NCBI RefSeq assembly: GCF_000337515.1
Contig: NZ_AOIQ01000018.1
Coordinates: 1 to 38,953 of the forward strand
Direction: 5' to 3'
Origin: Halovivax asiaticus JCM 14624
GTDB lineage: Archaea; Halobacteriota; Halobacteria; Halobacteriales; Natrialbaceae
DNA: 38,953 bases
Part shown: positions 5,996 to 30,426 of the stretch, one piece after another
How positions within the stretch are numbered: the first letter of the stretch is position 1
Layout: each line of letters starts with the position of its first letter
Program-made: the position numbers and the translations under genes
The notes under the pieces: model-generated
Databases searched by the model: none
Told to the model about the DNA's origin: nothing
Seen by the model: only the letters and a program-made list of their open reading frames with translations

Positions 5996-6301
5996 GTGCT
6001 GAACTCATCCTCTATATTCAGCAGCCCGTTCCTCTCGGAATCACTGATATCTGCCCTCCTCGGATGCAATAGCGAGCCCTCGTTCGAGGTTGTTAACGAT
6101 ACACTTGATGACGAGTTCCCGGAACTGCTTCCACCAGAGGTGTGACCGCACGAATGCACCGAATTTCTGTTTGATCGCCGCGTTGACTGTCTCGTTCATG
6201 TTCCGCCGATGGTAGAGATCGCTGCCCAGCCGTGTATTCCACGCTTTGTGGAGTGGGGTAAACTCCCGGTGTTTGATTCCATTGAGATCTGAAGGGGCCA
6301 A
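5996..6301 (-). pseudogene. transposase C-terminal fragment with IS end, IS4/IS5 superfamily
   Basis: The reading frame 6041-6301 gives only the last part of a DDE transposase. It contains the Y-(2)-R-(3)-E-(6)-K signature at Y30, R33, E37 and K44 of the readable frame (DLYHRRNMNETVNAAIK), then the conserved-looking WWKQFRELVIKCIVNNLERGLA. The N-terminal catalytic Asp residues are absent, and the zinc-ribbon gene lies just upstream, so the element is 5'-truncated and inactive. Positions 5996-6025 beyond the stop resemble 4035-4064 and probably mark the element's right end. The apparent ATG at 6301 is simply where the frame opens. Confidence 0.8.
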
Positions 6302-6330: not shown

Positions 6331-6573
6331 TTACTCCTCCAGCAACCCCGCCTCCTTCTTCCACCGTTCCGTAAACTCCAGCATCCCCATCGCGGCGATA
6401 CAGTCCGGACAGCAGTACCGAACCGAGTGGGCGTAGTCCGCCGAGAAAATCTCCGGCGGGTCGACGTCCACCCGAAAGAGCCGCGGCGGTGCCACGTCCC
6501 GATCACACCGATAACACTCCCGATCTGGAGACACATCGCCAGCTCCGCCGCGCTCTCGCTCGACGGATTTCAT
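6331..6573 (-). CDS. small zinc-ribbon-like protein, copy 1
   Basis: An 80-residue protein with Cys20-x2-Cys23 (ECYRCDRDVAP) and Cys55-x2-Cys58 within RYCCPDC, a pattern suggesting one zinc site. Small CPxCG-type zinc proteins are common in haloarchaea; this may be a DUF7576-like family, which I am not certain of. Its role is unknown. ATG 6573 is chosen because the paralogue at 30172-30426 starts at the equivalent place (MTSVER against MKSVER) and both are preceded by an SD-like sequence. Here GAGG ends seven bases before the ATG. The gene has a conserved leader of about 245 bases, unusual for the lineage. The transposase remnant abuts its 3' side. Confidence 0.8.
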   Translation of the reverse strand: MKSVERERGGAGDVSPDRECYRCDRDVAPPRLFRVDVDPPEIFSADYAHSVRYCCPDCIAAMGMLEFTERWKKEAGLLEE

Positions 6574-6820
6574 CCGAGCACCTCGCAGTTCTGCCGCTCG
6601 AACTGATCGAAGATACCCGGCCCCCAATCCCCGAAAACGAAGCTCGGCGACGGATAGCGATACGACTCCCTAGACAACGGGCGTGCGAGACCTTTTTGTC
6701 TCGATGGTGTCTTTCGGAACATGGCTGCCAGGCTATCTGGAAGCCACGCGTCTCGGGTGCCTCACCACCCGGGACATTTCTGAGCGCTGTCCCCTGCGAC
6801 GAATGGAGACGCTGGCTTCC
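6574..6820 (-). promoter_or_regulatory. conserved structured 5' leader, copy 1
   Basis: Hairpins visible in minus-strand order: 6809-6815/6819-6825 (7 bp, possibly at the start site); 6771-6776/6788-6793; 6754-6759/6766-6771; 6721-6726/6742-6747 with inner 6728-6731/6737-6740; 6686-6691/6698-6703; and 6574-6580/6614-6620 with inner 6586-6591/6600-6605. The last hairpin ends directly at the ATG and leaves GAGG (6581-6584) between its inner and outer helices. Positions 6651-6724 match the second leader (30021-30094) at 68 of 74 bases without gaps. The upstream end is inferred from the TATA box at 6841-6850. Role as a regulatory RNA is inference. Confidence 0.62.
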
Positions 6821-6840
6821 AGCGTGGGCTACGGGCTACT

Positions 6841-6850
6841 GTATATTATA
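6841..6850 (-). promoter_or_regulatory. TATA box upstream of leader copy 1
   Basis: The minus strand reads TATAATATAC, a strong TATA element. It is about 272 bases before ATG 6573. The second copy has its TATA box about 267 bases before its ATG, so the distance is conserved. Confidence 0.6.
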
Positions 6851-29828: not shown

Positions 29829-29900
29829 CGGCCTAAGGGAAGCGTCACGCGGCGTTTGTTAGCTGGAGTTCTCTATTGTTTCCACAAATCAACCAGTAAC

Positions 29901-29910
29901 TATATTATTC
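29901..29910 (+). promoter_or_regulatory. TATA box upstream of leader copy 2
   Basis: TATATTATTC is a strong TATA element within an AT-rich stretch (29870-29925). It lies about 267 bases before ATG 30172, so the transcript should begin near 29928-29932 and carry a long leader. Confidence 0.6.
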
Positions 29911-29929: not shown

Positions 29930-30171
29930 CGGAAGTCCCGTCCGTACGGGTACGAAAGTGCCCCGGGTGCTGAGACACCCGAGACGTGGCTTCCAAATCC
30001 TGTAGCAGGGATTTTGTCAGCCATGTTCCGAAAGACACTATCGAGACAAAAAGGTCTCGCACGCCCATTAGCTAGAGAGTCGTACCGCTATCCGTCGCAG
30101 AGTTTCGGTTTCGGGGATGGGGGGCCGAGTATCTTCGATGGGTCCGAGTCATCGGATCGGGAGGTACTCGG
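29930..30171 (+). promoter_or_regulatory. conserved structured 5' leader, copy 2
   Basis: Hairpins in order: 29937-29941/29946-29950; 29948-29953/29958-29963 with GAAA loop, mutually exclusive with the first; 29964-29969/29976-29981; 29986-29991/30019-30024 with inner 29995-30000/30009-30014; 30042-30047/30054-30059; and 30125-30131/30165-30171 with inner 30136-30139/30156-30159 and 30144-30147/30152-30155. The last hairpin ends at the ATG and places GGAGG (30160-30164) between its helices. Copy 1 keeps the order, and the inner helices of hairpins 4 and 6 pair with different bases. A regulatory RNA is inferred. Confidence 0.62.
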
Positions 30172-30426
30172 ATGACATCCGTCGAGCGAACGAGCGACGG
30201 AACCGGCGAGTCGGCTCACGACCGGGAGTGCTACCGGTGTGATCGGGACGTGGCACCGGCGCGGCTCTTTCGGCTCGTCTCTGAGCCGCCGGCCGCGCTT
30301 TCGCACGACTACCAGACCGGGGAGCGGTTTTGCTGTCCGGATTGTGCGGCCGCGATGAACCTCTCGGAGTTCTCGGAGCGATTGAAAGCACGGGCTCGGC
30401 GAGGTGCTAACTCGTCAGATGGGTGA
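30172..30426 (+). CDS. small zinc-ribbon-like protein, copy 2
   Basis: An 84-residue protein with the same cysteine layout as the product of 6331-6573: Cys20-x2-Cys23 (ECYRCDRDVAP) and Cys55-x2-Cys58 in RFCCPDC. The central stretch RECYRCDRDVAP and the CCPDC-xAAM motif are shared, whereas both ends diverge, including a Ser/Gly tail here. A metal-binding, possibly regulatory, role is inferred; the family may be DUF7576-like. ATG 30172 follows GGAGG with seven bases spacing, an unusually good ribosome binding site for this lineage, and a long conserved leader. Confidence 0.82.
   Translation: MTSVERTSDGTGESAHDRECYRCDRDVAPARLFRLVSEPPAALSHDYQTGERFCCPDCAAAMNLSEFSERLKARARRGANSSDG

Follow-up and report, generated by a model that had tools for sequence, protein, structure and literature searches.

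What controls the small zinc-type protein gene that begins at position 30172 of the Halovivax asiaticus DNA analysed here (the window, 38,953 nucleotides)? A preliminary description drew attention to about 240 bases ahead of its ATG and took them to be wholly non-coding: a structured regulatory RNA placed before a small zinc protein. Such an RNA is strongly supported, because the element recurs in hundreds of copies, covaries, keeps a fixed distance from a TATA box, and offers mutually exclusive pairings around a start codon. However, the structured interval comprises two things: a 92-nucleotide leader before ATG 30023, and a 50-codon open reading frame (ORF) that fills the second half and contains the hairpins P5 and P7. 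The RNA would act first on AUG 30023, rather than on ATG 30172. The interpretation favored here, with a probability of roughly two in three, is a bistable translational leader RNA that either hides or exposes the start codon of a leader ORF, this ORF in turn being coupled to the zinc-protein gene.

The elements follow one another on the plus strand from position 29901: TATA box, leader, ATG, leader ORF, and the ORF for the 84-residue zinc-type protein (Table 1). Within the leader, P1 (GGAAGCCACG/CGUGGCUUCC) closes a three-way junction with two further hairpins: P2, which is GGGGUA-GAAA-UGCCCC or one of its many variants; and P3, CGGGUG/CACCCG or a variant of it, with family arms that include GACGUG, CGAUG, CAGGUG, GGCGUG, and GGGCG. 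Most copies keep GAA(A) at the 3' end of the P2 loop. The window leader folds beyond chance (z -3.8 against dinucleotide shuffles). Much of the preliminary description stands at this level: the upstream TATA box; hairpins in a fixed order, repeated in a second copy (there placed at 6574-6820, minus strand); the alternative inner helices AAATCC/GGATTT and CCAG/CTGG; and both the GGAGG and the last hairpin, which abuts ATG 30172.

In the second copy (copy 1; minus strand, 6331-6850), the order of elements is identical to that of copy 2. A short ORF downstream of copy 1 (window 6041-6301, minus strand) resembles, by eye only, the C-terminal end of an insertion-sequence transposase.

Table 1. Positions in the window of the leader RNA, leader ORF, and zinc-type protein features, for both copies.
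Feature	Position	Strand	Basis or remark
TATA box TATATTAT, copy 2	29901..29908	+	exactly 30 nt upstream of first G of P1
P1 5' strand GGAAGTCCCG; probable transcript 5' end	29931..29940	+	partner 29985-29994; P1 covaries
P2 hairpin GGGTAC-GAAA-GTGCCC	29948..29963	+	48 distinct arm pairs across family
P3 hairpin CGGGTG-N6-CACCCG	29964..29981	+	both sides change across family
Switch strand GAGACGTGGCTTCC	29981..29994	+	P1 3' strand or, exclusively, P4x 5' strand
P4 inner hairpin AAATCC...GGATTT (29995-30000/30009-30014)	29995..30014	+	hypervariable, pairing ability kept
P4x 3' strand AGCCATGTT	30019..30027	+	contains leader-ORF start codon; pairs with switch strand in alternative fold
Leader ORF, 50 codons (MFRKTLSRQKGLARPLARESYRYPS...)	30023..30175	+	stop overlaps zinc ORF start as ATGA (30172-30175)
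P5 hairpin CGAGAC-AAAAAG-GTCTCG, within leader ORF	30042..30059	+	stem CGAGAC/GUCUCG becomes CGGGAU/GUCCCG in relatives
P7 hairpin CCGAGTA/TACTCGG at zinc ORF start	30125..30171 (arms 30125-30131/30165-30171)	+	abuts ATG 30172
Shine-Dalgarno-like GGAGG for zinc ORF	30160..30164	+	direct sequence
Small zinc-type protein, 84 aa, CYRCDR...CCPDCAAAMNLSEF	30172..30426	+	ORF translation
Leader RNA, copy 1, P1 to P5	6683..6823	-	covariance model match, 83.8 bits
Leader ORF, copy 1, 50 codons	6570..6722	-	ends in ATGA overlap as in copy 2
Zinc-type protein, copy 1, 80 aa	6331..6573	-	ORF translation

How widely is the element distributed? A search with the peptide recovered 14 convincing copies from the window genome, 8-14 from each related species (three in all), and none from any other genus (4/292 genomes positive), which pointed first to a genus-restricted element. 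Covariance models overturned that reading. Model R1, built from 14 copies, matched 81/391 Halobacteria genomes; R2, built on 69 R1 matches, raised the count in the window genome to 28 copies; and the broad model R3, comprising P1-P2-P3 alone, matched 176/391 Halobacteria genomes and 67/86 genera. The near self-complementarity of the element put about ten model matches outside the family on the antisense strand, and these were reverse-complemented before use. Comparison of the DNA with plasmids (blastn) gave matches limited to the leader half, at unannotated places in Natrinema, Halomontanus, and Natribaculum, and these located the copy-rich family among the Natrialbaceae. In a phylum-wide sample of 148 genomes, 12 had matches, all in one order and none outside the class. 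A pattern scan of genome contigs returned only two bacterial matches, judged to be chance; the same kind of search found no match in viral contigs and a phage collection, and a viral origin was rejected.

The preliminary description recognized no known riboswitch, and Rfam agrees: neither the window nor near and far relatives gave a match at or above the gathering score, and a search that admitted E-values up to 5 gave none either. No description of the leader RNA was found among open-licence papers. By these sequence comparisons, the leader RNA is a real, uncatalogued, and widespread cis-regulatory family, built in the manner of a translational switch.

Selection on RNA, which the preliminary description had read from two leaders, is borne out in the larger alignment. 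Across 26 diverse copies, the covariation score was 0.208; shuffles gave 0.106 +/- 0.012, and slid pairings never exceeded 0.095. Two-sided changes occupied 30 cells versus 12.6, and G-U pairs are present as well. The P1-P2-P3 domain has a mean fold z of -5.3 over 146 copies, and the minimum-energy fold consists of P1 plus two or more hairpins in 105 of these, versus 15/146 shuffles. The conserved secondary structure is thus supported by covariation, as in riboswitches. Among 107 copies, P4 takes 102 different sequences, and it still folds better than its shuffles do (mean z -1.8 and -2.0). One copy (L070; G043:C1:70800-73800) has an insert of roughly 50 nucleotides within the P2 loop that forms two further hairpins, in keeping with an RNA.

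These results bear on recent duplication, by which the two window copies would be alike through descent and the leader functionless. The leader-ORF halves of the two copies are indeed very similar (76% identical peptides), but the spread over genera, the covariation, the copy-specific pairing described below, and the P4 hairpins that differ almost from copy to copy and still pair together refute this reading, which retains next to no weight.

Two exclusive folds meet at the start codon. The P1 3' strand (GAGACGUGGCUUCC) is complementary also to the AUG and the bases that precede it (in Natrinema, AAGCCAUGUUUC). This second complementarity survives sequence change: GGUUUCC faces GAAACC-AUG; GGUCUUCC, GAAGACC-AUG; and GGGGUUCUC, GAACCC-AUG. 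When strands were re-paired among 19 distant copies, the native combinations proved stronger both for P1 (z -10.6) and for the AUG strand (z -7.8); with 66 distinct strands, the values were -14.9 and -12.4. Each permutation test gave p of at most 2e-4, with shared ancestry incompletely removed. (A few copies with a mis-parsed switch strand are in the permutation test, and out of the 146-copy fold and 112-copy energy sets.) Judged from sequence, three strands covary, the P1 pairing and the AUG-side pairing both being copy-specific. By pairing potential, therefore, P1 and P4x are mutually exclusive helices on the start codon, again as in riboswitches.

In the alternative fold, the AUG is fully paired in 79/112 copies. 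The median energy gap between the two folds is about 4-5 kcal/mol; for the window copy it is 0.6. Counting against the bistable reading, the window copy reaches its energy minimum with the AUG masked, whereas most copies favor P1, as calculated for 1 M NaCl, not molar KCl. Folds near in energy, and a masking helix that contains the start codon, would also suit an RNA thermometer or ionic sensor, in which temperature or intracellular salt moves the P1/P4x balance directly and no specific ligand takes part. Such a sensor is improbable: neither a covarying three-way junction nor the conserved unpaired GAA(A) of the P2 loop would be expected of it, and P1 is conserved, not the masking helix alone.

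The position of the promoter is likewise constrained. The TATA octamer starts 30 nucleotides before P1 in 44/47 copies from the genus and in 54/68 from the family. This is the usual archaeal spacing between TATA box and start, and from it transcription probably starts at the first base of P1. Many genus copies share a motif like TTGATTCCAC about 20 nucleotides upstream of the TATA box (window about 29874-29884), perhaps a common activator site. Strong palindromes (such as CATAAGACACGTGTCTTATG) lie upstream of P1 in the distant leaders L213, L218, L217, L209, and L239, and look like transcription-factor operators.

What, then, does the AUG at 30023 begin? Between the switched AUG and the start of the zinc ORF, frame 0 is open in 46/48 genus copies, versus 28 and 5 for the other frames, and in 55/61 family copies, versus 9 and 4. 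The leader ORF is mostly 30-60 codons long in both genus and wider family. An overlap of its stop with the zinc start at -1 (ATGA or similar) occurs in 42/48 genus and 36/68 family copies, and in most of the rest the overlap is a few bases longer. A stop overlap and a kept open frame are the marks of a translationally coupled leader ORF. Two genus copies have a premature stop; in a few others the leader ORF is frame-shifted, and in two of these it is joined in frame to the zinc protein.

Conservation of the leader peptide is weak, with pN/pS of 0.60 in the genus (0.43 over the first 14 codons) and 0.96 in the wider family. These values give no clear sign of an arrest peptide that acts through its sequence. 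In the genus, a block of 12 bases around AAAAAGGTCTCG does not vary at any codon position. Two simple accounts thereby fall. The purely non-coding leader is ruled out by the conserved open frame with its ATGA overlap, which makes up the second half; a purely coding cause of conservation is ruled out by pN/pS of 0.6-0.96 together with the invariant block.

Of the parts described earlier, the last hairpin (P7) generalizes least. It finds support in the genus (mean z -1.04 over 48 copies, versus 0.03 in a control stretch), and none in the wider family (z -0.01). Individual copies show changes in its pairing, among them CCGAGATC/GATCTCGG. On this pairing evidence, the structure at the start of the zinc gene is genuine, though modest, and restricted to the genus.

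Nearly every examined copy precedes a small Cys-pair (zinc-type) protein, drawn from several unrelated families. In the genus, the downstream proteins are of the CYRCDR...CCxDC type; other copies in the window genome precede MGRYDFDEP...CVDC relatives and CPxCG...CGC proteins; and in the wider family CPxCG...CGC predominates. Further genera have other Cys-pair proteins, and a few targets lack a Cys pair. In Haladaptatus plasmids, SWIM zinc finger genes follow the leader, at up to 30 similar places per plasmid, and in the case examined the annotated start lies directly after the RNA. (Plasmid NZ_CP085339.1, locus L240, is an example of a large SWIM expansion.) None of the small proteins except SWIM reached the curated cut-offs of Pfam or NCBIfam, and solved relatives of the zinc protein included none that was convincing. 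PADLOC gave no match for the window zinc protein and only weak matches for relatives; a link to defence systems was rejected. At two loci, L105 (NZ_CP082248.1) and L109, both the coupled ORF and the small zinc protein are missing from the plasmid gene table. Units of leader ORF and zinc protein may be systematically missed in annotation.

The type of P5 loop tracks the downstream protein without exception, within one genome too: AAAAAG goes with CxxC...CxxCxAxxxLxE, and UAAAC with CPxCG...CGC. (Most AAAAAG copies left unclassified in this comparison belong to the same family, with D replacing E.) Such a match could point to the leader as a protein-binding site that includes P5, perhaps for the encoded zinc protein, which would repress or activate its own message in the way known from ribosomal protein leaders; zinc ribbons often bind nucleic acids. 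However, co-inheritance of leader and gene explains the match as well as co-evolution does. Moreover, the P1-P3 domain is common to at least three unrelated protein families, SWIM included, so one protein is not easily the common ligand of the switch. Autoregulation of this sort is considered unlikely, if still worth weighing.

Direct sensing by the junction, as in a riboswitch, is judged slightly more probable than control by a bound protein. A tentative proposal, held at rather less than even odds, is a new haloarchaeal riboswitch class, reaching about 30 copies per genome, that controls zinc-type and SWIM proteins through masking of the coupled leader-ORF start. Its signal is perhaps zinc, thiol/redox state, or another signal shared by the targets. 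Counting against a riboswitch, up to 28 copies of one class per genome, all ahead of small proteins with no assigned role, is unusual for metabolite riboswitches.

Could the hairpins instead be incidental, as inverted repeats of a mobile cassette or DNA repeat that serve DNA binding or transposition? Copies are many per genome, often plasmid-borne, and sometimes in tandem (two each in L158, L155, and L150, about 0.5 kb apart), which fits such an element. Nevertheless, orientation and position between TATA box and start codon are constant; pairing includes G-U pairs, two-sided changes, and three covarying strands; and copies stand ahead of unrelated genes in distant genera. A mobile repeat is thus highly improbable. 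The second tandem copy in L150 is decayed, and has no ATG.

The bistable leader would work as follows. Transcription would begin at P1, and the RNA would adopt one of two folds. In the first, presumably the ON state, P1 closes the three-way junction, leaving the AUG of the next ORF accessible. In the second, the 3' strand of P1 would release its 5' partner and pair around the AUG instead, forming the helix P4x, extended by the hypervariable P4 hairpin, and hiding the start. If such switching takes place in cells, ribosomes that complete the leader ORF would re-initiate on the zinc gene via the stop/start overlap. In more distant haloarchaea, the RNA lies immediately at the start codon of genes for SWIM-type or other Cys-pair proteins.

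Haloarchaea commonly have leaderless messages, and almost no natural riboswitches are known from archaea (PMC8241225), so a covarying RNA with the potential to mask a start codon is surprising. Nearly half of the sampled haloarchaeal genomes carry this one, absent as it is from Rfam. Moreover, a single control element unites large, mostly unannotated expansions of small zinc proteins (28 units in the window genome), and the common leader offers a handle on the signals that those proteins answer.

Translational riboswitches are one close parallel: they too have a structured 5' domain before an ORF, and a strand common to the closing stem and an AUG-masking helix. The leader RNA differs in its lack of an Rfam class, its very many copies per genome, and its haloarchaeal occurrence. 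According to a 2021 paper, only one natural riboswitch had been determined experimentally in archaea, the fluoride riboswitch of Thermococcus kodakarensis (PMC8241225). Coupled leader-ORF control shares the short ORF, the stop that overlaps the start of the regulated gene (ATGA), and the kept open frame; here, in contrast, the start of the leader ORF would itself be under the RNA switch. Ribosomal protein leaders also have covarying 5' structures that may overlap the translation start, whereas the copies examined here lie upstream of small zinc-type and SWIM proteins of unrelated families, and not of ribosomal protein genes. Finally, the regulated genes encode proteins of the same general kind as the set of small haloarchaeal C(P)XCG zinc-finger proteins in Haloferax volcanii (PMC11241148), but the families described here expand to many paralogues that share a leader.
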